From an uncultured Collinsella sp. (lineage in GTDB: Bacteria > Actinomycetota > Coriobacteriia > Coriobacteriales > Coriobacteriaceae): 14,844 bases of DNA. Shown here piece by piece: positions 1 to 14,539 of the stretch (position 1 is the first letter of the stretch; the number at the start of each line of letters is the position of its first letter). Under the pieces are notes generated by a model. The model saw nothing but the letters and a program-made list of their open reading frames with translations, was not told where the DNA came from and searched no databases. The position numbers and the translations under genes are program-made. The DNA lies in the NCBI GenBank assembly GCA_900555765.1, contig USMA01000004.1, positions 1-14,844 on the forward strand, in the 5' to 3' direction.

Positions 1-711
1 CAGCGCACACAGGGCATCGTAGCCAGTAGCGCCTTCGTTAAAGGTAAAGGTGCCACCAGAGGACACAGGATTGCCCACGGCGCTCGATGTGACCGAAACC
101 GTTACCGTGACGTAGTTGGACTCCTGCGAGCCGCCCTGTCCGCCCGAGGGAGCGCTTCCGCCATTAGAGCTGGAGGCTCCATCAGACGACTGACCGCCGC
201 CCGAAGAAGCCCCGCCAGACACATTGGGAGTATCGCCGGCTACCGTATTATGGGCAGCGGATTTATCTCCAGACTGCTTGCCTTTCTGATCATCTGACTT
301 TTTGCTATCCGAGCTTTTATCCGATTCCTTGTCCGAAGACTCGGAATCGTCCTTGCCGTCGTTCGAACCCTTGGACTCGTCTTTTGCATCATTCGAAGAT
401 TTGGAATCCTTGGAACTGGCCTCGCCCGAAGCGGCAGACGAGCCAGACCCCTTGGAGTCCTTGGTGACGACGCTCTCCCCCGTCACGGTCTGAATGATCC
501 AGTCGATGGACCAGACACCGCTTGTGGAAGGATAGACGAAACCCAGCGAGACGACGATCAGAATGGTGCATGCGGCAGTCAGAACGCCAAGGAGCGCCTT
601 GTGACGAGAGGCGGACGCCGCCGAAGCGGCGCCCTTTTGCTTTGGATCATCGAGCTGGATAAACGAGGAGTCGGGCTGTTGCCCGCTGGTCTCCTTGGGC
701 TTATCGGGCAT
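1..711 (-). CDS. Membrane-anchored DUF4430 (transcobalamin-like) protein, C-terminus outside window
   Basis: The reading frame is open for 237 codons from ATG 711 to the window edge, so the 3' part is missing. Residues 1-36 are polar and presumably cytoplasmic. About 37-60 (KALLGVLTAACTILIVVSLG...) is one hydrophobic segment, an uncleaved signal anchor. About 80-195 is a low-complexity Ser/Asp/Lys then Gly/Ser linker, typical of a wall-spanning stalk. From about 198 (VTVTVSVTSSAVGN...TFNEGATGYDAL) it resembles the first strands of a DUF4430/transcobalamin C-terminal-like domain; that family is linked to corrinoid binding in transcobalamin and intrinsic factor. The start lies inside the end of the upstream gene, giving an 11-base overlap, with AAGGGTG about 7 bases ahead, so translation is probably coupled and under the same cobalamin riboswitch. 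The domain call rests on a partial domain; the membrane-linker architecture is clear. Confidence 0.75.
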   Translation of the reverse strand, partial: MPDKPKETSGQQPDSSFIQLDDPKQKGAASAASASRHKALLGVLTAACTILIVVSLGFVYPSTSGVWSIDWIIQTVTGESVVTKDSKGSGSSAASGEASSKDSKSSNDAKDESKGSNDGKDDSESSDKESDKSSDSKKSDDQKGKQSGDKSAAHNTVAGDTPNVSGGASSGGGQSSDGASSSNGGSAPSGGQGGSQESNYVTVTVSVTSSAVGNPVSSGGTFTFNEGATGYDALCAL

Positions 712-3700
712 TACCGTCACCCTTGCCGCGCTTGGTCAGCACGAAGACGGCGATGAGCGCGAGGCCAATCACGCCGGCGGCGATGCCAACGATGGCGAGC
801 GCATTGGTGCCAGTCTCCTGCTCGGCAGCACTAGAGGACTTCTTAGCAGTGGTCGTGGAAGCAGCACCCGTATCGGACTTGGAATCGGACTTCTTGTCGG
901 ACTTGCTGTCCTTTTTGTCAGACTTCTTCTCGTCCTTCTTATCGGACTTATCGGAGCCCTTCTTTTTGGACTTGTTGTCCTTGGTCTCGCTCTTGGTCGA
1001 CACCGTCGTCTTGGTCACCGGCTTCTTGCCCGGGGCAATAGCGCCGCCCTTCGAGCCGGAGCCGGAACCCGTGCCAGTGCCAGTGCCAGTGCCAGTGCCG
1101 GAACCAGTACCGGTACCAGAACCGCCGCCGCCATTCGAACCAGCGCCGCCATTACCGCCAGGGTTAACGGCATTCTTGGTCCACTTGGCATACAGCGTCA
1201 GATCGGCCGTCACCGGCGTGCTAAAGTCATACGCCTGCGTGCAAGCCTCATCGGTATACCAACCGCCGAAAGTGTAGCCATCGCGCGTCGGATTGGCCGG
1301 CTTGACCAGCTTGCCATCGGCCGTAGCAACAAACTTAGTGTCGCAAGCAGACCCGCCGTTGGAGTTAAAGGCAACCGTCCAAGACTCGACAGCTCCAAGT
1401 TTAAACAGCGTGCCCGAATCATTAATGTAGTAGAGATTGCCAGAAGCATCGGCAATGACCGGAGAGTCACAGTACTGGTAATGGCCAGCCGCATCATAAA
1501 TCTGCGTCGCCCCTGCATCGCCGAGCGTATAGCGATACACGCCACCACCAGCAGAGTAGTTGACGTAATCCTTGCTATCCGCGCTGTTAACGGTGAAGTA
1601 CACATAGGTCTTGCCGCCCTGAACACTCACCAGCGGAGTAGCAGCAATACCGTTGAGGCCAGCCGGCAGCGCCTTGCCGTCGGCAGCAGCGACCATCGTG
1701 GTCTTACCCGTCTTCAGGTTATAGAGAACCAGAGCAGAGCCCGTAGCCGTCTGTCCGCCGACAATCAGATTGTCACCAAACACCGCAGGGGCGCTCAGAT
1801 TATTCGTAAGGCCCAGATCAACCGTCTTCTGCTCGCTCAGTACGCCCTTCGCCGAAAGCGAAATCACATGGAGCTTTCCGTCGTGTGTCATCTGATAGAA
1901 GGTCGAACCATTAGACGGATCGGCAATGCAATCGGCATTTGCGACAACGCCGAGCTTTATGGTCGAAATGACATCGCCCGTCGTCTTATCAATGCACTTA
2001 AGCGTGCCCGCGCTCGTAGGAACAATGGTGTACTTATCCGTCAGCGCAGCGCCAGTCCAATAATAGCCCTCGGAAGCGTCAATGTTCTGCCAAGAGACTT
2101 CGCCCGTGGCAATCTTGATACGCTTAAGGGAGCCGTTGCCGTAGGTCGCGTTGTAGTTCTCATCATACGAAATATCGACCGTACCAACATAGACGTACTC
2201 GCCGTCCGAAACGACGGTGCAGGAGCTCTGCGTCAAGTCCGTCAAACCGGGCGTCAGCCACTTGCAGATCAGCTTGTCTGCAGTAATCGCCTGGACCGCA
2301 CCGCCGTTGAGCGGAACGATGATAAGGCCATTGGTATAGATCGGACGAGAGGTATAGCTCACCTTGGAGGCAAGCGGCGCAGAGGCAACCTTTTTGCCCG
2401 TGGACGAATCGATCTTAATGAGCTCGTTCTCGGTCGCAATATACACAAAGCCGTTAGCGATGACAGGTTCGCTGCAGTTGGCATACTGCTGACCAGACTC
2501 GGCCTTCCAATCGAAGGCCCACTTAAGACCGGCAGCCTGCGCAGGCGTCTTGGCATCCGTTACGGTCGAACCGTTGCCACTGTTGCCGTAGCCGGCCCAC
2601 TCGGCATCCCAATCAGGAGTCGTCGCACTCGGGTCCACGACAATCTTGTCGGGATCGGGCATGGGCGAGTCATCGGTCGTATAGGCAAGCGTAACCTTAT
2701 CGCCACTCTTGAGCGTAATCTGATTGGCGCAGAGTAAGGAGGGCTCTCCATTGATATACAGGTGCCAATATTTATTGGTCGTAGCATCCCAGACATACGG
2801 CTTGTGATCGAACGGCGAAGAAACGGAATTGAGGACCCAGTATGCACCACTCTGGGAGGCCTTGTAATCAACGCGCTTTGCCTTCAGAACCGTCTCAATG
2901 AAATCCTGAGCCGTAGAGCCTTCGGGCAGAGAAACGTTGCTTGCCGAGCCCCAGCGAGTATTGTTGCCGTTGACATCGGGACCGATAACATCGACAGAAC
3001 CAAGAACCTGGCCAGGAAGGGCATCGGCGTCAGCACCATACATAAAGGTGACGGCGTCACCCTCTTGGAGCTCATAGGCACCGGCGCCGGCGTCGGCGAA
3101 CTTGCCATTTACGTAGAAGCGCCAATAGCTATTGGTCGCAGCATCCCAGCCATAGGACTTACCATCGAACGGCGAATAAATGCCGTTGAGGAACCAGCCC
3201 CAAGACGATTCGCCAGCATCGAGAGTAAGGCCGGTCTGCTCAAGGAGCTCCTTAGCAGTGGAGCCTGCCTTGAGGCTCGTCTGGCCCGTCGAAGCCCAAA
3301 CCTGCTGCTTGCCGTCCTTGTCCTTACCAAGTACCTGAACGGAAGCATGGACGGAATCAGAGGGCAACTGGTCGCCCCAGCCACCGTAGAACCACGTAAC
3401 GGTATCGCCAGCATGAATGGTGACATTGTCTGCCGTGTAGTCGCTCGGCTTGCCGTTGATAAACAGCTGCCAATAGGTCGAATAATCGAGCGGCGTACCC
3501 AGCTCAACGCCGTTGTACTTAAGGCTCAGAATGAAGGAGCCCGCAGCAACGGCGTCAATATCATTCGCCTCGAGCGCGACCTTCGTAAGGTCAAGCGCGC
3601 TCGAACCGGACGTCACCACATACTGCGCGTTATCGACCCAAGTCTGAGTCTTGCCCTGGGCATCGCGACCAATGACGGTCACATTCGCAGCAAGCTGGTC

Positions 3701-4582
3701 CTTAACGACAGGGGACGAGCTACCAGCCGTATAGGCAAACTCAATCTTCTGCCCCTGGGTGAGCTTGACGCTGCTCGCGCCAACCGAGGAAGACGCGCCG
3801 TCGACGAACAGCTGCCAGTAGGCATGAGTCGTCGGATCGTAGGCAAGCGTGCGGCCATCGCTCGGGGATGTGATGCTTTCGAGGTAGAAACCGTATGCCG
3901 TGTTCGGATCGTACTTCGCCTTGAAGCCCGTCTTCTGCTGCAGCTTAATGAAGGCATCCGCAGCCGTCGCGCCCTCGTCGAGCTTGAGCTGCGTAGGTGC
4001 CACCCAGGTCTGAGCCTTGCCGTCGGCATCGGTGCCGATAATCGAGAACGAGACCTCGACTTGCTTCTTGGCGACATCGCCGGTTTCTGTCGGGTTCTCT
4101 GTCTGGACGGCAGTCGCGGCGGCAGATCCTGCTTGGCCAGCGGATGCCGTCGAAGACTGCTCGCTCGTGGCAGGGCTCTCCCCCGTCGCCGAGCCTTCGT
4201 CGCCAGTTGCCGCCTCTGTAGTGGCGGCACTAGCTGCAGGCGCGCTCCCGGAATCCGAAACCTCGGCGCCGCGCTGCGCAGCGGTACCGCCCGCAAGCGC
4301 TGCGTCCTCGCCCGGCGTTGCAGCCTGAACCACAGCGTCGGTAATGCCCTCGGCGCCCTCGGCCCACAGCTGAGCCGGCGTGGTGCCAAAGGCCATCGCG
4401 AAGGCCAGGAATGCCACCAGGCAGCGCTTGGCTACACCGCGTGCAATCGCGCCACTGCGATGCAACGAGGCGCGCTCACGCTCGTCCTCAAACATATCCA
4501 TTTGTCCCCCATTGTCTGTACTTGGAGCGTTGCCTTGAGGCTGCCCCACGTCATCGCGCATGTTGCGCTCGAGTTCCCCCAT
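701..4582 (-). CDS. Cell-surface protein: four transcobalamin-like (DUF4430) domains + PQQ beta-propeller + InlB B-repeat
   Basis: The protein has 1293 residues. ATG 4582 is chosen because AAGGAGGA lies 5 bases upstream; an in-frame TTG at 4645 falls inside the riboswitch. Residues 1-53 are polar; 54-76 form a signal peptide or anchor (CLVAFLAFAMAFGTTPAQLWA). After an Ala/Ser/Thr linker come four DUF4430-like repeats at about 174-286, 299-400, 412-516 and 527-635. Each ends in a YWxxxxxxG motif (YWQLFVDG, YWQLFING, YWRFYVNG, YWHLYING); three carry SP(S/F)D before it, and repeat 2 lacks this. Residues 684-1064 are a PQQ/WD-like propeller (DSSTGKKVAS, KIATGEVSWQ, DKTTGDVIST, NLKTGKTTM blades). 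Residues 1066-1136 are an InlB-type B-repeat (FNSNGG...GYTFGGWYTD...LYAKW). A Gly/Thr tract and a Lys/Ser/Asp tract follow, then a TM helix at about 1260-1283 and a basic tail. The riboswitch and the domain family suggest corrinoid capture at the surface; this is inferred. Alternatively the propeller and B-repeat serve adhesion. Confidence 0.88.
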   Translation of the reverse strand: MGELERNMRDDVGQPQGNAPSTDNGGQMDMFEDERERASLHRSGAIARGVAKRCLVAFLAFAMAFGTTPAQLWAEGAEGITDAVVQAATPGEDAALAGGTAAQRGAEVSDSGSAPAASAATTEAATGDEGSATGESPATSEQSSTASAGQAGSAAATAVQTENPTETGDVAKKQVEVSFSIIGTDADGKAQTWVAPTQLKLDEGATAADAFIKLQQKTGFKAKYDPNTAYGFYLESITSPSDGRTLAYDPTTHAYWQLFVDGASSSVGASSVKLTQGQKIEFAYTAGSSSPVVKDQLAANVTVIGRDAQGKTQTWVDNAQYVVTSGSSALDLTKVALEANDIDAVAAGSFILSLKYNGVELGTPLDYSTYWQLFINGKPSDYTADNVTIHAGDTVTWFYGGWGDQLPSDSVHASVQVLGKDKDGKQQVWASTGQTSLKAGSTAKELLEQTGLTLDAGESSWGWFLNGIYSPFDGKSYGWDAATNSYWRFYVNGKFADAGAGAYELQEGDAVTFMYGADADALPGQVLGSVDVIGPDVNGNNTRWGSASNVSLPEGSTAQDFIETVLKAKRVDYKASQSGAYWVLNSVSSPFDHKPYVWDATTNKYWHLYINGEPSLLCANQITLKSGDKVTLAYTTDDSPMPDPDKIVVDPSATTPDWDAEWAGYGNSGNGSTVTDAKTPAQAAGLKWAFDWKAESGQQYANCSEPVIANGFVYIATENELIKIDSSTGKKVASAPLASKVSYTSRPIYTNGLIIVPLNGGAVQAITADKLICKWLTPGLTDLTQSSCTVVSDGEYVYVGTVDISYDENYNATYGNGSLKRIKIATGEVSWQNIDASEGYYWTGAALTDKYTIVPTSAGTLKCIDKTTGDVISTIKLGVVANADCIADPSNGSTFYQMTHDGKLHVISLSAKGVLSEQKTVDLGLTNNLSAPAVFGDNLIVGGQTATGSALVLYNLKTGKTTMVAAADGKALPAGLNGIAATPLVSVQGGKTYVYFTVNSADSKDYVNYSAGGGVYRYTLGDAGATQIYDAAGHYQYCDSPVIADASGNLYYINDSGTLFKLGAVESWTVAFNSNGGSACDTKFVATADGKLVKPANPTRDGYTFGGWYTDEACTQAYDFSTPVTADLTLYAKWTKNAVNPGGNGGAGSNGGGGSGTGTGSGTGTGTGTGTGSGSGSKGGAIAPGKKPVTKTTVSTKSETKDNKSKKKGSDKSDKKDEKKSDKKDSKSDKKSDSKSDTGAASTTTAKKSSSAAEQETGTNALAIVGIAAGVIGLALIAVFVLTKRGKGDGNAR
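1071..1124. repeat. Hexanucleotide tandem repeat encoding a Gly-Thr/Ser tract
   Basis: Nine consecutive 6-base units, four gtgcca then variants (gtgccg, gaacca, gtaccg, gtacca, gaaccg), encode the Gly-Thr/Gly-Ser linker between the B-repeat and the Lys/Asp-rich tract of the surface protein. Because the unit is a multiple of three, slippage would change stalk length without breaking the frame. Confidence 0.85.
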
Positions 4583-4587
4583 CGGGG

Positions 4588-4595
4588 TCCTCCTT
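4588..4595 (-). promoter_or_regulatory. Shine-Dalgarno site deciding the start of the riboswitch-controlled gene
   Basis: On the minus strand this reads AAGGAGGA, five bases before ATG 4582. It fixes the start and would be the target of any translational switch, because the riboswitch 3' end (transcript CCUCCC, about 4649-4654) contains a matching CCUCC. Confidence 0.8.
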
Positions 4596-4644
4596 CCCTC
4601 CAGAGCCCTATGCACACCGGCGGCATACGCCGCAGCCGCATGCA

Positions 4645-4817
4645 AGATGGGAGGCGATCCGACTTAACCTTAACGGCTCAGGCGTGCCGTCCGATCTGCG
4701 ACGCGAACATCCCGAGCCAAGAGGAATTACGGTTACTGGTACAGCCGGGGACTTGCACCCCGATTCTCCCAAACGCGCAGGAAAACCGCGCATTCGTGCG
4801 TCTCCGCACCACCATCT
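4645..4817 (-). ncRNA. Cobalamin riboswitch
   Basis: Read on the minus strand, the segment carries the conserved core of cobalamin riboswitches. GGGGUGCAAGUCCCC (rc of 4747-4761) is followed by GCUGUACCAGUAACCG (rc of 4730-4745), matching the family's GGTGCAAxTCC...CTGT...GTAA pattern. A B12-box-like AAGUCGGAUCGCCUC (rc of 4651-4665) lies near the 3' end. P1 closes perfectly: AGAUGG (rc of 4812-4817) pairs with CCAUCU (rc of 4645-4650). The aptamer ends about 60 bases before the start codon of the DUF4430/propeller gene. No hairpin followed by a U-run lies between them, so control is more likely translational. Cobalamin aptamers normally repress uptake and synthesis genes when B12 is plentiful. 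Confidence 0.9.
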
Positions 4818-4826
4818 AGGCCATCG

Positions 4827-4855
4827 ATTAAAACCGTCAACATGCTATCACGCAA
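4827..4855 (-). promoter_or_regulatory. Putative promoter of the riboswitch transcript
   Basis: On the minus strand TTGCGT (4855-4850) and TTTAAT (4832-4827) are separated by 17 bases. The -10 matches TATAAT at five of six positions; the -35 is weak. A start about 7 bases downstream would place the 5' end just before riboswitch stem P1, which supports the assignment. Confidence 0.45.
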
Positions 4856-4881
4856 AAGGGCCTCGCACGCAGGAGAAGCCC
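4854..4881 (-). terminator. Rho-independent terminator after the AarF-family gene
   Basis: On the minus strand GGGCTTC (rc of 4875-4881) can pair with GAGGCCC (rc of 4858-4864), including one G-U, around a 10-base loop. TTTT follows directly (rc of 4854-4857). It lies about 50 bases beyond the kinase stop codon and just before the putative riboswitch promoter, so it separates the two transcripts. Confidence 0.55.
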
Positions 4882-4932
4882 AAGGTAAAAGCTATTGTTT
4901 GCGAAAGGAAAATGCGGTGACGGTCGCAGCCT

Positions 4933-6696
4933 CTAGTGCTTGCCGCCGTGGCTGTTGAGCCAGATATTGCGGCCCAGCATGAGCGCCAGCACCAGCGCAC
5001 TCACGTAGCCCATAAAGCCAATGACTGGGATACCAAACACAACCGGCTCGATGCGTGCGTAGTACACCACCGACGAACCGATAAACAGACCGGCGATAAC
5101 GATAGCCATCGACATGCGGTCGATAATTCCACCCAGCTGTCGCAGCGCCTTATCGCTGCTCATGATCTGCGTGTTCACCTTAAGCTGCCCGCGTGTGAGC
5201 ATACGCGAAGCCAGCCCCAGGTACTCAGCCGCCTCGAGTGAGCCCTTCGCCGCGCGATAACTGCTCGCGGCAAAGTCGCGGCTCATCTCGCGCATGCGGG
5301 CATAGGTGCTCTTCTCGTTTTTGATATGAGCCTGAATGATCTGGATCATGTTGACGTTGGGCATGTACTCGGTCAGCAAACCCTCGAGCGTCACCATGCC
5401 GCGGGCGAACATCGTCACCACGCTCGGCAGCTCAACGTCATTTTTGCGCGCCAGATTGAGCAGCGAGGTCAAAAACTCGCCGATATCCAGGTCTTTAAGG
5501 TCGAGCCCGGCAAAGTCGGCAACAATAAAGTCCAAGTCGGACAAAAAGGCCGAATGGTCAAGCTCGGCCGAATCGCCGCGCGTCACGGCAAAGCGCATGA
5601 GCGAATCCTTGAGCTTGGGCACGTCGCCCTCGGCCACGGCGAAAATCATGTCCTTGACGATACCGCGGTCGTGGCTCGACATGCGTCCGACCATACCCAA
5701 GTCGATAAAGTAAACGATGCCGTCCTTGAGGATGATATTTCCCGCATGCGGGTCAGCATGGAAAAAGCCGTCGTCGAGCACCTGCGTCGAGTAGTCCTCG
5801 ACAATCGCGGCACCTATCTTTTCCAAGTCATAGCCCTCGGCCACTAAGCGTTCAGGATCGGCGATCGAAATGCCGTCGACGTAGTCCATAACCACCACGT
5901 GCTCGGTGCACAGGTCCAGATAGGATTTAGGACACGTCACGCCATGAACGCTCTTATGGAACTCGTAGAAGTCGTTGAGGTTTTTGGCCTCGGCCAAAAA
6001 GTTGGTCTCCTCGCGAAACGAGGTCCACAACTCCTCGACTACGCCGTGCAGGTCAACGAATTGATCGGTGTTGACGAACTTGGAAACGATACGCACCACC
6101 GAGCGGATGATATCGATGTCCTGTGCCATAACCTGCTGCGCACCGGGGCGCTGCACCTTGACGGCCACGTCCTCGCCCGTCACCAGACGAGCGCGGTGCA
6201 CCTGCGCGAGCGATGCGCTACCAAGCGGATTGGGGTCGATCGCATCGAACATCTCCCCCAGGCGCAGGCCGTATTCTTCTTCCAGGCAACTGAGTACGAC
6301 CTCGTACGGCACCGGCTCCACGTCGGAGCGCAGACGACGCAGCTCGTCGCAAAAGCGCTGCGGCAGAATCTCGGACCGGTTGGCCAAAATCTGCCCCATC
6401 TTGTCGAACATGGGGCCGAGTTCCTCGAGCAGGCGGCGCAAACGAACCGGCGTGAGGTTATCCCACACGCGGTACTTTTTGACCAGGCGAACAATCTGCC
6501 CAATGCGTTCGCGACGACCCGCCGGCGTGAGCTGGTATTCCTCGTCCGGCGCCATCGCGTCGGGCTCCTCGGGGACCATATCGACAGCGCGCGGCTTCTT
6601 GCGAGCGCCCGAGACGACGGCATCGACCTCATCGACAACCGCCGCCTCGTCACCCAAGGGATCTAGATTGTTGTAATCGGTGGTGGAATCTGCCAT
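4933..6696 (-). CDS. AarF/UbiB (ABC1) family atypical protein kinase-like membrane protein
   Basis: The protein has 587 residues. The family's hallmarks are present in order: the N-terminal KxGQ motif (K99-M-G-Q102), an Ala/Ser-rich nucleotide loop (GSASLAQVH, 159-167), the VAVKVQRPG lysine (K180), the catalytic-loop HADPHAGN (313-320) and the DLG metal-binding Asp (D332). Two hydrophobic segments at about 527-545 and 551-575 anchor the C-terminus in the membrane, as in UbiB/ADCK proteins. Residues 1-55 are an acidic, poorly conserved extension. Members act as ATPases or kinases linked to ubiquinone or isoprenoid-lipid metabolism; the substrate here is unknown, and no quinone biosynthesis gene is in view. 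It follows the phasin-like gene by 8 bases, in the same operon, and ends before a terminator. The family call is secure; the biological role is not. Confidence 0.93.
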   Translation of the reverse strand: MADSTTDYNNLDPLGDEAAVVDEVDAVVSGARKKPRAVDMVPEEPDAMAPDEEYQLTPAGRRERIGQIVRLVKKYRVWDNLTPVRLRRLLEELGPMFDKMGQILANRSEILPQRFCDELRRLRSDVEPVPYEVVLSCLEEEYGLRLGEMFDAIDPNPLGSASLAQVHRARLVTGEDVAVKVQRPGAQQVMAQDIDIIRSVVRIVSKFVNTDQFVDLHGVVEELWTSFREETNFLAEAKNLNDFYEFHKSVHGVTCPKSYLDLCTEHVVVMDYVDGISIADPERLVAEGYDLEKIGAAIVEDYSTQVLDDGFFHADPHAGNIILKDGIVYFIDLGMVGRMSSHDRGIVKDMIFAVAEGDVPKLKDSLMRFAVTRGDSAELDHSAFLSDLDFIVADFAGLDLKDLDIGEFLTSLLNLARKNDVELPSVVTMFARGMVTLEGLLTEYMPNVNMIQIIQAHIKNEKSTYARMREMSRDFAASSYRAAKGSLEAAEYLGLASRMLTRGQLKVNTQIMSSDKALRQLGGIIDRMSMAIVIAGLFIGSSVVYYARIEPVVFGIPVIGFMGYVSALVLALMLGRNIWLNSHGGKH

Positions 6697-6704
6697 CTAC
6701 GCTG

Positions 6705-7121
6705 CTACTCGGCCTCTTCGGTATCCTTCGCATCGTCGGGCCCAACGGACTCGACGGGCACCGAGGTCACGTTGTCCTCGACCGAATCGACGATGTCGCG
6801 TACATGAGCCAGGAAGGCCGTGCGCTCGGGGGCGGTCATAACGCGGACGCGGGCAAGGATGAGCTCGTCGAGCACGCGCTGGGCCGCGGTCTCGCCCTGC
6901 ATGCCCAAGCGCTCGGTCAGATCGGAGATGGTACCGCCGGCCTGCTCGAACATGTCGGACACACTGCGGGCGATATCGGGGGTGGCGGTGTCCTTGCGGA
7001 CCTGCTCGCCCTTGGTACTGAGGTCGTCGAGAACCTTCTTGCTGCCCTCGACGGCAACGGCGGCAGCGCCAAAGCCAACGTTGATGGCGCCGTTAACAAG
7101 CTGATCGAGTTTCATAACCAT
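6705..7121 (-). CDS. Phasin-like small alpha-helical protein
   Basis: The protein has 138 residues. ATG 7121 has GGAG about 7 bases upstream; an in-frame TTG at 7133 overlaps that site and ATG 7115 is a further alternative. The N-terminus (MVMKLDQLVNGAINVGFGAAAVAVEGSKKVLDDL) is an amphipathic, alanine-rich stretch. A long predicted helix follows (GEQVRKD...SDMFEQAGG...LTERLG), then a segment rich in Val/Arg/Ala, and an acidic tail (DDAKDTEEAE). There are no cysteines and no signal peptide. This composition resembles phasin-type or polyhydroxyalkanoate-regulator-like coiled-coil proteins, which in other bacteria can sit next to AarF-family genes. It is probably translated together with the kinase 8 bases downstream. 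No PHA synthase is in the window, so a true granule role is unproven; it may be a partner or regulator of the kinase. Confidence 0.75.
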   Translation of the reverse strand: MVMKLDQLVNGAINVGFGAAAVAVEGSKKVLDDLSTKGEQVRKDTATPDIARSVSDMFEQAGGTISDLTERLGMQGETAAQRVLDELILARVRVMTAPERTAFLAHVRDIVDSVEDNVTSVPVESVGPDDAKDTEEAE

Positions 7122-7220
7122 GGTTGTCTCCAATCACAAACAACTGCATTGGCGTTCTTGTACCCAAGATTGAGTGAAAGCGACAAAGCGTTTTAGCACT
7201 ATTCGATCGACGGGAAATCC

Positions 7221-8744
7221 CTACCTCACGTTGTCGTTCATCGCGAAAGAGTTCTTCATGGCGCAGCTCGTGGTGTAGAGCACCTTGCCCAGTAGAGCAT
7301 CGGTCTCCACGCGAACACGCTCGGCAAAGGCCTCGTTGGCGCGTGCAAGCTCGGCAGGCACCTCGGCCTCGGGCAGAACGGCTACGGCAGCGTCGACGTC
7401 ATGGATCTGCTTGTGGCCCATGCCACCGACCTTCTCCTGATAGTCCTCGACCGCGCGACCGCACTCATGGAAGCGGACGTCAGCCAGCGCGCCGATCAGG
7501 CGGTTGGCCCAGTAGAAGTTTTCGGACGTCACGCGAGCCTGCGTGTCGGCATAGTACTCGGGCATGGTCTCGACGTTGGCGTACAGCGGAACCAGCGCGT
7601 TAAACGAGTTGGAGCCAAACGCCATCCACTGCACGGCGCGATAGGCCGGCTGCGCATAGGGACGCAGCTGCAACACGGCGAGCTGGCTGTTGCGATTGAT
7701 GCCGATGGGGCGATAGGCGCCACGCGTAGCGGGCGTGCCCTTGCTACCGTAGCAATCGTACTCCGTGCCCTGGTAGTGGCTCGAGAGTACGTACTTGATG
7801 TCCTCGATGGTCACCTTGCGCTCGGGCACGCGGCTCCAGGGGATATCGTCGCTCTCGGGCGTGTAGTCGGCGTCGGGGCCATCCCACACGTCGCTGGGGT
7901 TGAGACAGCGCTGCATGTACCACGCGCGCGGCGTGTTGTAGACGTGGTCGCTGTCGCTGTGCGAGCCAAAGGCCTCGCGCGGGTTAAAGACCGCAGCCGG
8001 GCCGTCGCCCTCGACGCCCAGCGTCAGGTCCAGATGCCACTCGGCCATCCAGGCGCGCAAGTCGGCGGAGCACATGTGGTCGGCCTGGGCGCCCTCGGCG
8101 TCATCCAGGTCAAAGCTGTCGATACCCAGCTGGTTGGGCATGGTCACGTAGGCGTCGTCAGGCACGCGCTTGGCAATCCAGTGGTGACCACCGATGGTCT
8201 CGAGCCACCAGATCTCGTCCACATCACTAAAGGCGATGCCGTTGTTCTCGTAGGTGCCGTAGCGCTCGAGCAGGTCGCCCAGGATACGAACGCCGTCGCG
8301 GGCGGACTTAGCGTACGGCAGGACCAGGGTCACCATGTCCTCCTCGCCCAGGCCACCAGGCTGCGCCGGCACATAGCCGTCCTCACCCTCGTTGCCCTTG
8401 GCGGGCACGTAGTCCACGAGCGGGTCGGCGCCGCGAACGCGCTCATTGGTGGTGAGCGTCTCGGTTGCGGACATGCCCACATTGAGCTCGTTGAAACCGG
8501 CCTCGGCCCAGATGCCGTGGCCCGGGACAACATCGGGGACACTCGTGTAGCGCATGGGGTTATCGGGCAGCTCAACGGTCAGGTGACTCAGGACGCTCGT
8601 GTAGACGCGCGGCTGCTCGTCGGGATGCACCACGCGCATACGCTTGGGCTCAAACACCCCGTTGGACGAGTCCTCGTTACGCGCGACAAGCGTCGACCCG
8701 TCGTAGCTCGCGTTCTTACCGACCAGAATCGTTGTGCACGGCAT
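7221..8744 (-). CDS. C69-family dipeptidase (PepD-like, N-terminal nucleophile hydrolase)
   Basis: The protein has 507 residues. The N-terminus reads MPCTTILVGKNASYDGST, followed by ARNEDS. In peptidase family C69 (Lactobacillus PepD type) the Cys becomes the N-terminal nucleophile after removal of the short leader, here Met-Pro, so Cys3 is the predicted catalytic residue. Other family features are PGHGIWAEAGFNELNVGMSATET, the DEIWWLETIGGHHWIAKRVPD stretch, and WMAFGSNSFNALVPLYAN near the C-terminal third. The length is usual for the family. There is no signal peptide, so it acts in the cytoplasm, hydrolysing dipeptides. Two ATGs (8750 and 8744) lie close together; GGAGG abuts the first and stands 6 bases before the second, so 8744 is preferred. 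It is a single gene with a 99-base gap to the next. Confidence 0.93.
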   Translation of the reverse strand: MPCTTILVGKNASYDGSTLVARNEDSSNGVFEPKRMRVVHPDEQPRVYTSVLSHLTVELPDNPMRYTSVPDVVPGHGIWAEAGFNELNVGMSATETLTTNERVRGADPLVDYVPAKGNEGEDGYVPAQPGGLGEEDMVTLVLPYAKSARDGVRILGDLLERYGTYENNGIAFSDVDEIWWLETIGGHHWIAKRVPDDAYVTMPNQLGIDSFDLDDAEGAQADHMCSADLRAWMAEWHLDLTLGVEGDGPAAVFNPREAFGSHSDSDHVYNTPRAWYMQRCLNPSDVWDGPDADYTPESDDIPWSRVPERKVTIEDIKYVLSSHYQGTEYDCYGSKGTPATRGAYRPIGINRNSQLAVLQLRPYAQPAYRAVQWMAFGSNSFNALVPLYANVETMPEYYADTQARVTSENFYWANRLIGALADVRFHECGRAVEDYQEKVGGMGHKQIHDVDAAVAVLPEAEVPAELARANEAFAERVRVETDALLGKVLYTTSCAMKNSFAMNDNVR

Positions 8745-8750
8745 GTGCAT

Positions 8751-8755
8751 CCTCC
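8751..8755 (-). promoter_or_regulatory. Shine-Dalgarno site deciding the dipeptidase start
   Basis: On the minus strand GGAGG ends immediately before ATG 8750, leaving no spacer, but is six bases before ATG 8744. That argues for the second ATG, which also places the catalytic Cys at residue 3. Confidence 0.75.
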
Positions 8756-8830
8756 GTGAGCGAAGAAATCTAACGGCAACAGTGTATCGCTTCGACGCTA
8801 AAAGGGCGATACCACGGCCTCGGCAGCCCC

Positions 8831-9062
8831 CGTGGTCAAAAAATGCCAAATATGAGTACTGTCACCAATTTAGTAGCAGCAAATTTCCTTGTAATGAGTG
8901 CCGGAAATCCCTATTTGTCCAAAAGCGAGGCAGCGTTATTCCCCATAGGTTCAATAAAATGGGCTTTCTAACGAGAATGAATATCGTTAGGAAGCCCAAA
9001 AGACGTAAAATATATGTGACTATCTTGGCAACAGTACTCATATTTAGCGCTTTTTGACCACG
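8831..9062. repeat. Terminal-inverted-repeat element in an AT-rich gap (MITE-like)
   Basis: Positions 8831-8862 and the reverse complement of 9031-9062 are 32-base arms with 29 matches; the only differences are at arm positions 13, 14 and 17. The innermost 12 bases (tatgagtactgt / acagtactcata) are perfect, and weaker similarity extends about 16 bases further inward. The enclosed 168 bases are clearly more AT-rich than the genes on both sides and hold no credible gene. One internal hairpin lies at 8960-8998. I see no target-site duplication, so the boundaries are uncertain. A small non-autonomous mobile element is the best reading; a long folded RNA is the alternative. Confidence 0.55.
8953..8998 (-). 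terminator. Terminator-like hairpin downstream of folD
   Basis: Arms 8960-8974 and 8984-8998 pair over 15 bases with a single wobble or mismatch around a 9-base loop. Reading on the minus strand, ATTTTATT follows. The position, about 100 bases past the folD stop and in the correct orientation, fits the end of the fchA-folD transcript. It lies inside the inverted-repeat element, so that element may have supplied the terminator. Confidence 0.6.
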
Positions 9063-9098
9063 TGGTATATAGCCAACCCCTCAAACAGCCCAAAACGC

Positions 9099-9953
9099 CT
9101 ATATCGATGAGCGCTCGGCCGCATCGATCACGTGTTTGGCGAGCATCGCCGTAGACACGGCGCCCACGACGCCCGGCACGGGGGTGATGGCACCAACAAC
9201 CGGCTCCGCGGCAACAAAATCGACGTCACCCACCAGCTTGCCAGCGTCCTCATCCCAGTTAATGCCCACATCAATGATCGTCTGGTCCTCGCGAACGGCA
9301 TCCACGCCAATCGTGCGCGCGCGTCCAACGGCGGCAACCACAATGTCAGCAGCACAGCACTCGGCGGCAAGATCGCGCGTATGCGTATGGCACGTCGTCA
9401 CGGTTGCGTTGCGCGCCGTAAGCATGGCGGCAACGGGGCGGCCAATTACCAGTGAGCGTCCGACCACGGCAACTTTGGCGCCGTCCAGCTCAACGCCGTA
9501 ATGATCCAGCAAAGCAAGCACGGCTTCAGCTGTGCAGGGGGCAAAACCCTCGCCGCGCCCCGAAAGCGTGGTAAGCAGCGAAGCCGGCGTCATGGAGTCA
9601 ACATCCTTGGCGGGATCGAGCGCCGCGGCAACCGCATCCTCGTCAAGCCCAGCGGGCAGTGGGCGAAACATCAGGCAGCCATGAACAGCGGGGTCGGCAT
9701 TGATGTCCCTAATAGCCGCCAGCAGCTCATCCTGCGAAACATCGGCAGGAAGCAAAACGCCGCGAGCCTCAATGCCAACCTTCTCGCAGCGCTTGAGGGC
9801 ACCGCGCTCGTAGGACAGGTCGTCCTCGCGCTCGCCCACACGAACAATGGCCAGCGTCGGCACAACGCCGCGTTCGCGCAAAGCAACGCAGCGAGCAACG
9901 AGCTCCTCGGTCAAAGCACGGGCAACGGGAGCACCCTTAAGCAGCTCGGCCAT
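9099..9953 (-). CDS. folD: FolD-type methylene-THF dehydrogenase lacking usual cyclohydrolase residues
   Basis: The protein has 284 residues. ATG 9953 follows AGAGGGG by 6 bases; longer in-frame extensions overlap the upstream gene. The substrate half has the GRSLVIGRP Rossmann signature (165-173), the DVGIN motif (228-232) and a terminal TPVPGVVG (257-264), all FolD hallmarks. FolD oxidises 5,10-methylene-THF with NAD(P) and then hydrolyses methenyl-THF. The usual YxxxK catalytic lysine is absent: Y48 is followed by E-R-G-A52. The Gln of the usual VQLPLP motif is also missing (M95-F96-R97-P-L-P), while the Asp of DVD (D119) remains. In studied FolD enzymes these Lys and Gln residues are central to the cyclohydrolase step. 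The gene follows an FchA-like cyclohydrolase gene by two bases, so this FolD may be essentially a dehydrogenase. The fold is certain; activity is inferred. Confidence 0.88.
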   Translation of the reverse strand: MAELLKGAPVARALTEELVARCVALRERGVVPTLAIVRVGEREDDLSYERGALKRCEKVGIEARGVLLPADVSQDELLAAIRDINADPAVHGCLMFRPLPAGLDEDAVAAALDPAKDVDSMTPASLLTTLSGRGEGFAPCTAEAVLALLDHYGVELDGAKVAVVGRSLVIGRPVAAMLTARNATVTTCHTHTRDLAAECCAADIVVAAVGRARTIGVDAVREDQTIIDVGINWDEDAGKLVGDVDFVAAEPVVGAITPVPGVVGAVSTAMLAKHVIDAAERSSI

Positions 9954-9955
9954 GG

Positions 9956-10588
9956 CTATCCCCTCTTCCTGGCTGCATCGGCGGCGCGGCGCGCCAGCGC
10001 ATCGGCGCGCGGCAGCCACGTATCCAGCATCTCATCGCACGCCGCCTCGCGCTCCTCGGCACGCACCCGGTCTTTCATAGATGTGGTGTTGGCAAAGAGC
10101 GTCAGGCTCGCGCCTTGCATGGCGGCGCGGCAGAATACGGCACCGCACGCCACGTCGGACAGCAGCTGTCGGGAGCCCTTGTCCGCCATGTCCTCGAGCA
10201 GCGCCAGTGCGCGCCCGCAGGCATCCATAATGCGATACGGCGGCATGGCGGCCACGTGCAGCGCATCCTGAATCGCGGTCGCTCGAGCCGGATCGTCACG
10301 CGGAATACCGTACGCCGCGGACACCCGCCTGTAGGCACGAACGTCCTCGGAAACCAACTCGACAAGCTCCTGGGCCAGCTCATCAGCCTGGGCAAACGCA
10401 CGCGTCAGGTCATCCGCACGATCAGCAAGCGCGGGATTGGTCGCACCGAAGCGGGCAACCATTCCGCACAGCGAGGCGCCCAGCGCGCCCACATAGGCGC
10501 TCGCGCTGCCACCGCCGGGAACCGGCTCGCGCGCGGCAAGCGCCTCGGCAAACCCGCGGCAGGTTTTGTCCATCATCTCTTGGCTCAT
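9956..10588 (-). CDS. Cyclodeaminase/cyclohydrolase family protein, probable methenyl-THF cyclohydrolase (FchA-like)
   Basis: The protein has 210 residues. ATG 10588 has GAAGG 9 bases upstream; a GTG at 10594 is too close to that site. The family signature PVPGGGSASAYVGALGASL (about 23-41) is the folate-binding loop of the FTCD C-terminal/FchA family. It is followed by an all-helical body with conserved Asp/Arg (SEDVRAYRRVSAAYG) and a segment around ALHVAAMPPYRIMD. The length agrees with stand-alone members. Such proteins are either formiminotetrahydrofolate cyclodeaminases or methenyl-THF cyclohydrolases. The immediate downstream neighbour, two bases away, is a FolD lacking its cyclohydrolase residues. 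That makes cyclohydrolase the more likely function; no histidine-degradation genes are in view. The substrate choice is inference. Confidence 0.85.
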   Translation of the reverse strand: MSQEMMDKTCRGFAEALAAREPVPGGGSASAYVGALGASLCGMVARFGATNPALADRADDLTRAFAQADELAQELVELVSEDVRAYRRVSAAYGIPRDDPARATAIQDALHVAAMPPYRIMDACGRALALLEDMADKGSRQLLSDVACGAVFCRAAMQGASLTLFANTTSMKDRVRAEEREAACDEMLDTWLPRADALARRAADAARKRG

Positions 10589-10613
10589 ACGCACGCACCT
10601 TCAAGTCATATAC

Positions 10614-10642
10614 ATCGGTCGGGTGGCAACCACCGACCGACC
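10614..10642 (-). other. Hairpin in the leader of the fchA-folD operon
   Basis: On the minus strand GGTGG-TTG-CCACC forms a core extended by about six further pairs across a single bulged C, using the repeated GGTC sequence on one side and GACCG on the other. It ends about 25 bases before the start codon and has no U-run, so it is not a terminator. It may stabilise the leader or affect translation. It does not match the folate or ZTP riboswitch patterns I know. Confidence 0.4.
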
Positions 10643-11048
10643 GCATCGATCACATAATGGTGCTAAGTCTAGCCCATAAGTACTCGAGCGTCAGCGCACC
10701 TGGCCATCGCGGATTTCTATGGCACACGATAGGCCATGCCAACGCAAACATGGGAAACATGGCCCGCCTTTCGGGACTGCCGGACGTCACAAACTGGGGC
10801 ATATCTATAAACAAGGAACCTGTTGGGGCAACGCCCGCGTACACGCGCCCCTTTAAAACAACGGACACCTCACCCCGGGGAGAGCCGACAACACCGGCCC
10901 TCCCCTCTTTTGGACCCGCGCATATTGCCACTTGTCGGCGCAATTCCAGCCCTCAGAATGGGACACATGGCCCACCCGAGCGAGCCGCTCGCGCGTACAG
11001 TAAAGGCAGGTAATCCATGGGCGGTTACAGATCGAGGAGGACACGACC
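10643..11048. other. Intergenic region between divergent transcripts
   Basis: This stretch separates the minus-strand folate operon from the plus-strand lipoprotein. Open frames on both strands exist, but none has a plausible ribosome site, family signal or coding look. It holds a TATAAA at 10806-10811, a GC-rich hairpin around 10825-10851 followed by TTTAAAA, and a terminator-like hairpin at 10877-10911. A strong ribosome site (GAGGAGGA) sits at its end. Both transcripts presumably start within it; no -35/-10 pair is convincing. Confidence 0.5.
10877..10911 (+). terminator. Orphan terminator-like hairpin
   Basis: On the plus strand GGGGAGAGCCG can pair with CGGCCCTCCCC with one A-C mismatch around a short loop, and TCTTTT follows. 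No plus-strand gene precedes it, so it would end an unannotated transcript or act as an attenuator in the lipoprotein leader. Confidence 0.4.
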
Positions 11049-11648
11049 ATGAAAAAGAAGGCCTTTGCGATTCTCATCCTCTGCATCAGTCTCTTTGCCG
11101 CGGTTGCCTTGGTGGGTTGCGGTGGCAGCGGCGGCGCTACCGGCAGCGGCGGTGGCGGTGGCGGTGGAGCGGAAAAGCCAGCCGTGGATATGAGGACTGA
11201 CTTCATTTGGTTTAAAGTCGAGGTGCCCGAGGGCGTCGAAATCACGGACGTTGCAGGCGATACCGCCGACAGGTCCCAGTTTAAGTTCACCGAGAGCGAG
11301 CATGCCAGTGACCGCTTCATCCCCGTCTTCGATCCTGACAAGAACGCCGATGAACTGTTCGACTACGAGGCAAAGTGGAAGGCCAACTCCGGATGGACCG
11401 AGAGCGATCCCGTTAAGTACAACGGCAAGACCTGGCGCAGCGCCTACTTTACGCACTCGGGCGGCGTGACGACCGAGTACTTCACCGACGTTGACGGTGG
11501 CAGCGTGTATGTACGCATCGACAACATCGAGGAGCACAAGGACGCCGTCGAGACCATGATGAAGTCCCTGGAATTTGCCGATGACATCGCCGAGGCCAAG
11601 ACCGAGGCCATGGACGTCAAGCTCGACGATATCGAGATCAAGCGATAA
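11049..11648 (+). CDS. Small secreted lipoprotein, function unknown
   Basis: The protein has 199 residues, with GAGGAGGA 7 bases before the ATG. A short basic N-terminus (MKKK) and a hydrophobic stretch lead to the lipobox LVGC, so Cys24 is the predicted lipidation site. A Gly/Ser-rich linker (25-40) follows. The globular part (about 45-180) opens with FIWFKVEVPEGVEI and contains YNGKTWRSAYFTHSGGVTTEYFTDVDGGSVYVRI and an acidic helix (EEHKDAVETMMKSLEFA). This strand-rich pattern with a closing helix recalls small membrane-tethered lipoproteins of Gram-positive gut bacteria; I recognise no named family. It is a single gene with its own terminator about 70 bases downstream. Confidence 0.88.
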   Translation: MKKKAFAILILCISLFAAVALVGCGGSGGATGSGGGGGGGAEKPAVDMRTDFIWFKVEVPEGVEITDVAGDTADRSQFKFTESEHASDRFIPVFDPDKNADELFDYEAKWKANSGWTESDPVKYNGKTWRSAYFTHSGGVTTEYFTDVDGGSVYVRIDNIEEHKDAVETMMKSLEFADDIAEAKTEAMDVKLDDIEIKR

Positions 11649-11719
11649 GCGACTGGCGAGCGCAGCGGGATACGCGGGCGCAGTGCAAACAAGCGACGGT
11701 ACCCAGCGCTTCGTACCCA

Positions 11720-11751
11720 GGGAGGGCCGGTAAACCGACCCTCCCTTTCTT
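11720..11751 (+). terminator. Rho-independent terminator of the lipoprotein gene
   Basis: GGGAGGG (11720-11726) pairs with CCCTCCC (11739-11745); one mismatch precedes three more pairs closing a TAAA loop. TTTCTT follows. It lies about 70 bases after the lipoprotein stop. Confidence 0.85.
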
Positions 11752-11952
11752 ATGCCGGTAGCCAACGAACGCGAGGATGCCGGACGCCGGAACCACCACA
11801 AATGTGACAACAGTACGAAAACGGCAAGCACCCCAACACGTCCGCCCGCCGATTTATAGCGCCGCACAGACAATTAAACCGGCGTCTTTAAACATCTGGG
11901 CAGTATAGTGACCAAAACCAGCGCATAACCGCACTCTGCGAACGGAGGAACT
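11752..11952 (+). promoter_or_regulatory. Upstream region of the phospholipase gene with a possible -10 box
   Basis: About 200 bases without a gene. TATAGT at 11904-11909 is a reasonable -10 about 44 bases before the start codon, but I see no good -35 at the expected distance. GGAGGA lies five bases before ATG 11953. No riboswitch or operator pattern is apparent. Confidence 0.3.
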
Positions 11953-14445
11953 ATGACCGAACACCATGCCATCAGTCGCCGAGCGTTTACGCTGGGCCTT
12001 GGACTCGCCGCGTTGTCGCCACTTGCAAGCCTGTCCGAAACCGCAGTACCGGGCATTCCCCTGCGAGCGGCATTTGCAGACGACGCCGCCACAGCGGCAG
12101 TCAGCCTCGACAATTTCGTCATTCGCCTTCGCCCCGCGGGCTATTTTCGTACCGCGAGCGTCAACGAAGACGGCAACGTCATCGGCAACGTCTGCCACCT
12201 GTTTAATGACGGCACGTCCAGCAAGCTCATCCTTGAGAACGTAACGACCAAGAATGACGATACAAACTGGTATGCCATCCGCACCCTGCTCAATTTCGAA
12301 GAGCACAAGAAGACGGGCTACAGCATTTGGTCGGTCGATGGCGACTCGGACAAAGATGGAAAGGTCATCCACGTATGGAGCGGCGAGTATGACAACAAGC
12401 CCAGCCGCTCTTTTGCGTTCGAGCGTCAATCAAACGGTACCTATATCATCCGAGACCGCACGGTCGAGAAAGAAACCGAGAAAAAAGACATTAAGTACCT
12501 GGCCATAGAAAAGGACGGCAAAGACCAGGACAACAATAAGATCTGCCATAAGAGTAAGAGCATTCCGTGGGAGCTCGAGCTTGTCGGCTACAGCATGGAC
12601 AAGACCAATGCCACAGTTAGCAGCATCGACTGGACCACGTATAGCAGCTACGTCGACGGACCATGTTGGATGAGCCACGTCGATGGCAGCAAGTACCTCG
12701 ACGAACTGAGCATCCCGGGAACTCACGATTCGGGCACCTGCAGCGTCGACAACGACACCGAGCCCCAAACCTCGCTTGCAAAGTGCCAGCAGGATTACAT
12801 CCCCACGCAGTTGCTCGAAGGCATTCGCTATTTTGATATCCGACTTGGAAAGAACGACAAGAACGGCGACCCCGGCATCGACCATGGAATATGCTACCTG
12901 CACAAAAAAGACGGGGGCTTTATGCAACTCTCCGATGTCATCGGTTACTTCAAAACATTTTTGAACGAACACCCGTCAGAAGCGCTCATCATGCTGGTGT
13001 CACGAGGCAACGACGAGGCTACCGACGAAAGCGTTACGACGGCTTTCGCCAATGTTATGGGCAATAACTCCGATCTGTTCTATACGTCGAGCCATGTCCC
13101 CACACTGAACGAGGTGCGCGGAAAGATCGTCCTGCTGCGTCGATTTAAACTCGCCGGCGACAGCGTAGACGGCCACACGTGGGGCCTCGACCTCACTGAA
13201 TGGGACGACAAAATCAAGGCGCATTCCGGAAAGTCCATGTGCCTCGTCCAAGACGCGCGAGGCTTTGAGGCTGCGCGCAATGCGGGTGCCAAAGAGCCCT
13301 ATTGCACCAAGGTATATGCCCAAGACCATTACGACTGCACGGGATCCAGTAAGATCGACTGGGTCGATATGGCCCTGAAGGCAGCGTCCGAGTTCGAGCG
13401 CAGCACCGTAGATATCACTGCCGCGGACGGGACAACGGTGCAGGCACCGGAGCGCTGCTGGTTTATCAACTACACGAGCTGCACGCAAAACAACCCTTTT
13501 ACCGCAGCGCGAGTGGTCAACGAGCACCTGTACAAGAGCTCGTATATAAACAATACCGGAGTTGAGAGCACAAAGGCGGACTGCCGCAAGCACATTGGCA
13601 TCATCGCATCCGACTTTGTTGATGCGGCACTGGCCCGGAGCATCTACCAGCGCAATTACAACGATGCGCAGCACAAGCAAACCGTTTCGTGCTATCTCCC
13701 GACCCGCATGCGCATGACGTACGGCGACTCGCTGAGCGATGCCTCGCTCCAAGATGGCAAGACCGTTGGCGAGGGCCATTTCCGCCTTGTCGACAGCAGC
13801 AACGTACTCAACGTGGCGGCTTCGGGCCATGCGTTTGCCATCGAATATGTTGATGTCGATGCTCTGGGTAACGAGACCGTCACGGGGCTGCAGGGCTCCG
13901 TGCCCATCGATATCGATCCACGCGCGCTGACACCCCATTTTGAGGGACTCGAAGGCCTTAAGGCCGGCGAAGACGTGCGCGCCAAGATTGCGGCATCACT
14001 CGAGGGCAAGCTCGAAACCGATGCCTGCACGGCCCATCTCGAGTTTGTGCACGACGCGAACGGCGCTCCGGGAACGGCGATGGCCGAGGGCGAGGCATTT
14101 GCCGCGGGGACGTATTGGGTGCGTGCGAAAGGCCTGTTGGGCGACGCGGCGCAAAACTACACGCTTGCCACCGACGGAGCCGCAAGCTTTACTGTGACGA
14201 CTTCGGGCAACGCGGGCGACACCGGCAACGGTACCGACGGCGGCAACGGCAACGATGCCACCACGGACAGCGCCGACAAGAACGGTAAGGGCAACAAGGA
14301 CAAGGGCTCGGGCGGAAAGCTCGCCGACACAGGCGACGGCTCCGGTATTGCCGCCGGGCTCGCCGCTGCCGCCGTGGCGACAACGGTCGCCGGCGCAGCA
14401 ATGCTTGCCAGTGACCGCGAAAACGCTGGGGACGGTAGCGAATAG
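11953..14445 (+). CDS. Secreted, wall-anchored phosphatidylinositol-specific phospholipase C-like protein
   Basis: The protein has 830 residues. The N-terminus carries a Tat-type signal (S8-R-R-A-F-T-L-G, then a hydrophobic stretch ending near AFADD at 40-44), so it is probably exported folded. Residues about 52-215 form a strand-rich module, possibly ricin-like (weak call). The PLC-X catalytic domain spans about 232-570. IPGTHDSGT gives the general base/nucleophile-type His258, YFDIRLG gives Arg297 and DHGICY gives the second His, H311; these match the His/Arg/His set of bacterial PI-PLC. Known enzymes cleave phosphatidylinositol and can release GPI anchors. Residues about 605-750 resemble one or two Ig-like modules. 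A Gly/Asn/Asp linker leads to LADTG (790-794), a TM stretch (about 799-819) and a short tail. LAxTG is a class E sortase-type motif; the tail is unusually acidic. The substrate is inferred. Confidence 0.85.
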   Translation: MTEHHAISRRAFTLGLGLAALSPLASLSETAVPGIPLRAAFADDAATAAVSLDNFVIRLRPAGYFRTASVNEDGNVIGNVCHLFNDGTSSKLILENVTTKNDDTNWYAIRTLLNFEEHKKTGYSIWSVDGDSDKDGKVIHVWSGEYDNKPSRSFAFERQSNGTYIIRDRTVEKETEKKDIKYLAIEKDGKDQDNNKICHKSKSIPWELELVGYSMDKTNATVSSIDWTTYSSYVDGPCWMSHVDGSKYLDELSIPGTHDSGTCSVDNDTEPQTSLAKCQQDYIPTQLLEGIRYFDIRLGKNDKNGDPGIDHGICYLHKKDGGFMQLSDVIGYFKTFLNEHPSEALIMLVSRGNDEATDESVTTAFANVMGNNSDLFYTSSHVPTLNEVRGKIVLLRRFKLAGDSVDGHTWGLDLTEWDDKIKAHSGKSMCLVQDARGFEAARNAGAKEPYCTKVYAQDHYDCTGSSKIDWVDMALKAASEFERSTVDITAADGTTVQAPERCWFINYTSCTQNNPFTAARVVNEHLYKSSYINNTGVESTKADCRKHIGIIASDFVDAALARSIYQRNYNDAQHKQTVSCYLPTRMRMTYGDSLSDASLQDGKTVGEGHFRLVDSSNVLNVAASGHAFAIEYVDVDALGNETVTGLQGSVPIDIDPRALTPHFEGLEGLKAGEDVRAKIAASLEGKLETDACTAHLEFVHDANGAPGTAMAEGEAFAAGTYWVRAKGLLGDAAQNYTLATDGAASFTVTTSGNAGDTGNGTDGGNGNDATTDSADKNGKGNKDKGSGGKLADTGDGSGIAAGLAAAAVATTVAGAAMLASDRENAGDGSE

Positions 14446-14475
14446 GCAAGCCGGCCTTTTAAACACATCGACTCA

Positions 14476-14514
14476 ATCGGGGGCGCAGAACACCGTTCTG
14501 CGCCCCCGATTTTT
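14476..14514 (+). terminator. Strong rho-independent terminator of the phospholipase gene
   Basis: A perfect 16-base stem (14476-14491 with 14495-14510) around an ACC loop is followed by TTTT. It lies 30 bases past the stop codon and between convergent genes. Confidence 0.95.
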
Positions 14515-14539
14515 ACCTTGGCCCGAACGCCGCCATAGG

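Follow-up and report, generated by a model that had tools for sequence, protein, structure and literature searches.

A cobalamin-riboswitch-like leader ahead of transcobalamin-type surface proteins in an uncultured Collinsella: a probable corrinoid-capture operon

Introduction

A stretch of DNA from an uncultured Collinsella sp. (assembly GCA_900555765.1, contig USMA01000004.1, positions 1 to 14,844; all 14,844 nucleotides are hereafter called the window) begins with what is probably a corrinoid-capture operon, in which B12-switched capture at the cell surface would be followed by hand-over to an energy-coupling factor (ECF) transporter. The operon lies on the minus strand and consists of a leader resembling cobalamin riboswitches, a gene for a large surface protein with four DUF4430 domains, and a second DUF4430 gene cut by the window edge. 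A preliminary description, made from the letters alone, had suggested a Gram-positive, B12-regulated system for corrinoid capture, and this is the best-supported reading of the results given here, with binding of corrinoids by the domains still a prediction, as that description cautioned. Capture of B12 by Gram-positive gut bacteria is poorly known, and the operon points to specific proteins of a commensal of the human gut as candidates for assay.

Conservation of the Leader RNA

In a permissive Rfam search of 501 nt, the leader matched RF01689 (AdoCbl-II) at 4681-4769 on the minus strand with 29.2 bits (E 8e-5); one further, lower-scoring match from the same Rfam clan was left unnamed. We aligned the window leader with 36 leaders from relatives (alignment A2; 37 sequences, 35 distinct rows), excluding genomes G046 and G049 (genomes, contigs and loci carry our own G, C and L numbers); relatives passing RF01689 are among the rows. 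From another alignment, A5, three duplicate rows were removed. Many of the cobalamin-core columns, namely GGGTG, AA, CC, CCAG, AACCGT and AG-CGGA, are invariant or nearly so. The 13-pair P3-P6 structure, which was taken from the RF01689 layout, is paired in 98.9% of cells, and slid versions of it in only 38-60%. Its covariation score is 0.188 against 0.084 when shuffled, with 0 of 500 shuffles reaching 0.188, figures that are not probabilities because the rows are related and the structure comes from one family model. At two pairs of P4 both partners are exchanged (C-G to G-C and G-C to C-G), in each case in 8 of the 35 distinct rows. All 37 leaders allow a helix of 5-9 base pairs where P1 is expected (best helix picked, no null run), and the window leader folded by itself gives no significant signal (z -1.45). 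The leader has a conserved cobalamin core (P3-P6, GGUG..AA..CC and the B12 box) with covariation. The riboswitch core, P1 and B12 box that had been read from the letters are borne out by these comparisons, and the positions given for the 5' strand of P1 (4817-4812) and for the coding sequence (701-4582, minus strand) fit.

A covariance model, R1, was built from 34 leaders including that of the window, which it scores, as a member of its own training set, at 126.3 bits (4653-4771). R1 locates the element in 33 of 35 in-genus genomes, many of which are in its training set, while RF01689 exceeds its cut-off in 4 of the same 35 and in the genomes of 8 of the 58 relatives overall. The leader exemplifies a riboswitch subclass mostly missed by Rfam cut-offs. 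The 3' pairing of RF01689, which uses an internal CGGCACGCC, was not adopted for the window leader, because A2 places the conserved AGTCGGATCGCC there instead.

Linkage of the Riboswitch to DUF4430 Genes

Matches to RF01689 were obtained in 36 of the 58 relatives (38 matches), and 32 of the 38 have a same-strand DUF4430 match no more than 6 kb downstream; for RF00174 matches the corresponding figure is 17 of 38. The six RF01689 matches lacking DUF4430 within this distance are G038:C36, G046:C155, G049:C21, G054:C96, G007:C32 and G044:C5. Across 65 genomes of the family, the R1 element is present in 57 and DUF4430 in 58; both occur together in 57, DUF4430 only in 1, the riboswitch only in 0, and neither in 7 (Fisher p 1.1e-8, kinship ignored). 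At least 56 of 62 R1 matches have DUF4430 downstream within 8 kb, as do at least 24 of 27 in genomes outside the first sample, where distances were counted from the DUF4430 rows among the matches listed plus five rows from an earlier DUF4430 search. Behind the R1 match of G007:C32, a long open reading frame (ORF) runs into the contig end, its cut piece of 1461 aa being without DUF4430, and a DUF4430 ends another contig. The match in G079:C221 points to the first base of its contig, 480 bases off, and its DUF4430 was not among the matches listed. Those in G030:C19, G068:C2, G007:C13 and G070:C3, without downstream DUF4430, are weak (21-28 bits). In the open-access literature, searched by titles and abstract starts, a link between riboswitch and DUF4430 was not reported among the matches listed.

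As a separate observation, locus L171 (G030:C19, 3835-8617) carries an RF00174 riboswitch (48 bits) before a 1558-aa surface-type ORF with a FIVAR domain and without a DUF4430 match.

Surface Proteins and Their Domains

In the surface protein, Pfam finds DUF4430 (PF14478) in four stretches (E 3.6e-42; 143.1 bits against a cut-off of 23.8), so that the four domains read in the preliminary description passed a profile check. The ORF program starts the gene at TTG 4645, not at ATG 4582. A scan of named genomes with the window protein gave 20 loci, all Collinsella and many C. aerofaciens, with 36-94% identity in the best segments, which places the window in Collinsella or a very near relative. A single DUF4430 domain was modelled alone, because propeller matches took up the structural search with the full 891-aa model; the domain model shows a transcobalamin-type beta-grasp fold, as in the beta-domain of animal B12 carriers. 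The best matches of the propeller are YxaL, BamB and the designed Cake8 and Tako8, the last titled eight-bladed; BtuG had no entry among the matches listed, which does not imply its exclusion as a relative. For the second gene, the cut piece gave no DUF4430 match in Pfam, and a full-length relative (L006:12120-13031) matches with E 6.5e-19.

Two other arrangements were seen in relatives. An in-frame stop interrupts the big surface protein near DUF4430 domains 1 and 2 in two Collinsella genomes (L006 around 16020-16035, and G025:C1), and in G057 (L077 1-1308, minus strand) a propeller-type ORF is divergent from the riboswitch-led DUF4430 gene.

ECF Transporters and B12 Metabolism in Relatives

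In loci L076, L084 and L095 a riboswitch is followed by DUF4430 protein(s), then by a double ABC ATPase and an S component, while L080 and L103 hold DUF4430, ATPase and S component together with no riboswitch detected close by. A CbiQ-like T component is over cut-off in L084 and below it in L080; for the presumed T component of G001 and for L076:7889-8815, Pfam and NCBIfam gave no family, and they are so named by place only. The S component of L076 has 6FNP as its best PDB match (E 3.4e-9), which is ECF-CbrT, a B12 transporter shown by experiment according to the available text of PMC5997447. A profile of four S components gave 51 rows in 47 of the 58 genomes; among these 47, the S component has a same-strand DUF4430 no more than 4 kb away in 16 rows from 15 genomes of 11 genera, a count which used 24 hand-chosen DUF4430 rows (contigs judged matchable) and depends on that choice. 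The nearest relative of the window is not among the genomes with an adjacent S component. In G001, a double ATPase passing the cbiO model TIGR01166 and an S component whose top PDB match is 6FNP (E 1.1e-5) stand together elsewhere, preceded by the gene of the presumed T component. The preliminary description had proposed looking for ECF neighbours, and held that an operon never neighbouring corrinoid genes would speak against it; such neighbourhood, with an S component that is CbrT-like by a PDB match tested on one, exists in the 15 genomes of 11 genera, and within the genus the expectation mostly fails (31 of 34 unlinked).

A B12-binding domain is present in 48 of the 58 relatives, in Collinsella mostly as one protein of about 850 aa, presumably MetH. 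The available text of PMC6593275 describes C. aerofaciens as B12-requiring even though its synthesis genes are complete; since synthesis genes are present and B12 is yet required, uptake by the system may concern cobalamin, its precursors or the two together.

Two further observations deserve separate mention. In G017 and G018 (L110 3206-6346; L147 5724-8129), ECF ATPases and S component seem to form a fusion, a single long ORF that comes after a riboswitch-led DUF4430 gene. In G001 (L174, G001:C60, 10571-16000), a weak cobalamin-riboswitch-like element (R1 17.9 bits; RF00174 13.2 bits, below threshold) precedes CbiK and an importer of Peripla_BP_2/FecCD/ABC type; CbiA is close by.

Proposed Switch and Mode of Action

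A kissing contact between L5 and L13 near the ribosome site is a usual control mode of the cobalamin riboswitch class. The L5 CCAG is present in 37 of 37 leaders, and a downstream CTGGA in 35, with CTGGG in the remaining 2. CTGG[AG] lies 16-23 nt before the chosen start in 32 of the 37, the exceptions being G038:C36, G054:C96, G044:C5, G014 and G031. Among 213 Shine-Dalgarno-led ATG starts in the retrieved loci, a set that takes in the riboswitch-led genes, it occurs at this distance in 17, of which 14, judged by eye, are riboswitch-led genes.

The riboswitch class and the conserved sequence are the grounds for the direction of control suggested here. At high intracellular cobalamin, the leader RNA would bind cobalamin, and a kissing contact between CCAG of L5 and CUGG beside the Shine-Dalgarno would bar the ribosome; when B12 is scarce, the operon would be translated. 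Its products would then be a protein anchored at the surface, in which four transcobalamin-type beta-grasp domains are combined with a propeller, and a membrane-anchored partner with a single domain. On the outer side of the membrane both proteins may bind cobalamin or other corrinoids, for delivery to an ECF transporter whose S component is CbrT-like. Genes for this transporter belong to the same neighbourhood in several related genera and lie apart from it in most Collinsella examined.

Window Features and Neighbouring Genes

Table 1. Positions of the operon's features in the window.
Feature	Position	Strand	Basis
Cobalamin-riboswitch-like leader, full aligned extent from P1 to P1'	4641..4822	-	RF01689 below gathering score, A2, covariation, R1
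P1 5' strand AGATGG	4812..4817	-	pairs with CCATCT 4645-4650
P4 hairpin CGGGG-UGCAAGU-CCCCG	4746..4762	-	two pairs changed on both sides
L5 CCAG, proposed half of the kissing contact	4736..4739	-	invariant columns in A2
B12-box-like AGTCGGATCGCC, 3' side of P6 and P3	4653..4664	-	columns mostly invariant or near-invariant in A2
P1 3' strand CCATCT	4645..4650	-	P1 helix comparison
CTGGA beside Shine-Dalgarno, proposed partner of L5 CCAG	4599..4603	-	conserved in leaders; pairing inferred
Shine-Dalgarno AGGAGG	4589..4594	-	sequence
Gene for the surface protein, about 1293 aa with ATG 4582 as start	701..4582	-	ORF call, Pfam, AGGAGG ahead
N-terminal hydrophobic export signal	4361..4429	-	by eye
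DUF4430 domain 1	3716..4069	-	Pfam; alignment A6
DUF4430 domain 2	3371..3694	-	Pfam; alignment A6
DUF4430 domain 3 (modelled)	3011..3358	-	
DUF4430 domain 4	2666..3010	-	Pfam; alignment A6
PQQ/BamB-type beta-propeller	1391..2614	-	
List_Bact_rpt (PF09479)	1184..1378	-	Pfam
C-terminal membrane span and basic tail	728..802	-	by eye
Membrane-anchored protein, DUF4430 domain cut by window edge	1..720	-	ORF call

Elsewhere in the window, a PI-PLC-X domain protein (11953-14445, plus strand) ends, by eye, in an LADTG-type sorting-like signal, and a FolD-type gene (tetrahydrofolate dehydrogenase/cyclohydrolase) lies beside an FTCD_C/FchA-type gene (9099-10594, minus strand).

Alternative Explanations

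Several results weigh against a corrinoid-capture operon. Rfam at gathering thresholds gave 0 matches in the entire window; the 29.2 bits for RF01689 lie below its gathering score of 36.5 bits, and RF00174 was absent from the matches listed for the leader stretch at E up to 10, the window leader reaching the curated threshold of neither family (Rfam clan CL00101). The preliminary description had named RF00174 as the family to be found, and this failed both at gathering thresholds and permissively, so that RF00174 was dropped as the leader's label; the lack of an RF00174 hit, which it had regarded as fatal, is literally what was found, yet the sister family RF01689 matches weakly and the relatives' model R1 strongly. 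Scores under the Rfam cut-offs would also fit a decayed, non-functional riboswitch, which we regard as most improbable, given core columns that are invariant, helices that covary across several genera, and a low Rfam score that accompanies a long insert in the P6 region. The kissing pair of L5 and CTGGA is nearly invariant in both partners, hence without covariation support, and for this reason the contact is put forward as a proposal. On the protein side, the long profile A3 reaches transcobalamin-2 only at E 0.048, and profile A4, for the DUF4430 kind of the second gene, finds no transcobalamin within an E limit of 1 and has 3u7z (E 0.078) as its top PDB entry. The alpha-barrel half of transcobalamin was not detected in the surface protein, so that affinity could be low, and corrinoid-binding data for a bacterial DUF4430 domain were not found among the matches listed from the open-access literature. 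G022 has DUF4430 without a detected riboswitch; the S component in Collinsella is linked to DUF4430 in 3 of 34 genomes and unlinked in 31; and G001 possesses the Peripla_BP_2/FecCD/ABC importer besides CbiA and CbiK. Finally, CbiG occurs in 22 of the 58 relatives, including 13 of the 35 in-genus genomes and the nearest relative of the window, so that the cell may make corrinoid itself. Given these CbiG genomes and the mostly unlinked S component in the genus, scavenging is something that we infer.

A surface protein could also be B12-switched and nevertheless serve as an adhesin or a binder of cell-wall or host glycans, its DUF4430 domains holding something else. List_Bact repeats and BamB/YxaL-type propellers are of kinds widespread in surface proteins, and the protein has both; the FIVAR-domain ORF of G030 likewise stands behind a cobalamin riboswitch. 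We consider this unlikely, since neither the recurrent neighbourhood of DUF4430 and a CbrT-like S component nor the specific transcobalamin-type fold would be expected of an adhesin. Cobinamide or another precursor or degraded corrinoid, completed by the cbi genes of the cell, might instead be the captured ligand, as the CbiG of the nearest relative and of other in-genus genomes, the CbiA and CbiK of G001, and the B12 requirement of C. aerofaciens with its complete synthesis genes (PMC6593275, available text) could suggest; cobinamide is also accepted by CbrT in the available text of PMC5997447. That this is the ligand seems distinctly unlikely to us, as 22 of the 35 in-genus genomes have no CbiG match, and of these 21 have the riboswitch and all 22 DUF4430. 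Within the favoured corrinoid-capture operon there may lie, as a tentative and rather doubtful extension, a new architecture of B12 binder, in which the BamB-type propeller or the second DUF4430 protein would replace the animal alpha-barrel as the other half of the clamp around the beta-grasp domains; with several sites per molecule, it might take B12 in the gut in competition with the carriers of the host.

Comparison with Known Systems

The beta-domain of animal intrinsic factor, haptocorrin and transcobalamin has the same fold as DUF4430, whereas their alpha/alpha barrel half has no detected counterpart in the window protein. BtuG of Bacteroides (PMC6143338), a surface lipoprotein, would work alike, through riboswitch-controlled capture of B12 at the surface, and is also a beta-propeller; BtuG, however, is seven-bladed and confined to Bacteroidetes in the available text, whereas the propeller of the window protein shares its chain with domains of transcobalamin type. 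ECF-CbrT of Lactobacillus delbrueckii (PMC5997447, PDB 6FNP) is a detectable relative of the associated S component, and DUF4430 and riboswitch have 0 occurrences in the available part of that paper.

The closest likeness is with the transcobalamin-like SLBB clade defined by Burroughs et al. in 2007 (PMC1796856), who, as far as the available text goes, described surface anchoring, a beta-propeller fusion in Clostridium, paired SLBB genes and CbiO/CbiQ neighbours for it and put forward a role in B12 scavenging. A direct test of this prediction, that bacterial transcobalamin-like domains bind corrinoids, was not found among the matches listed from the open-access literature. Both those proteins and the window operon combine a secreted transcobalamin-type beta-grasp, a propeller fusion and a second paralogue, and the SLBB operons, with their CbiO-like ATPase and CbiQ-like neighbours, are likewise predicted to scavenge B12. 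The systems differ in that four tandem domains and a propeller occur here, with a CbrT-like S component in relatives that is encoded elsewhere in most Collinsella examined, and in the conserved cobalamin riboswitch, a word with 0 occurrences in the available text of PMC1796856. The family-wide tie of this riboswitch to DUF4430 genes provides independent regulatory evidence for the 2007 prediction.
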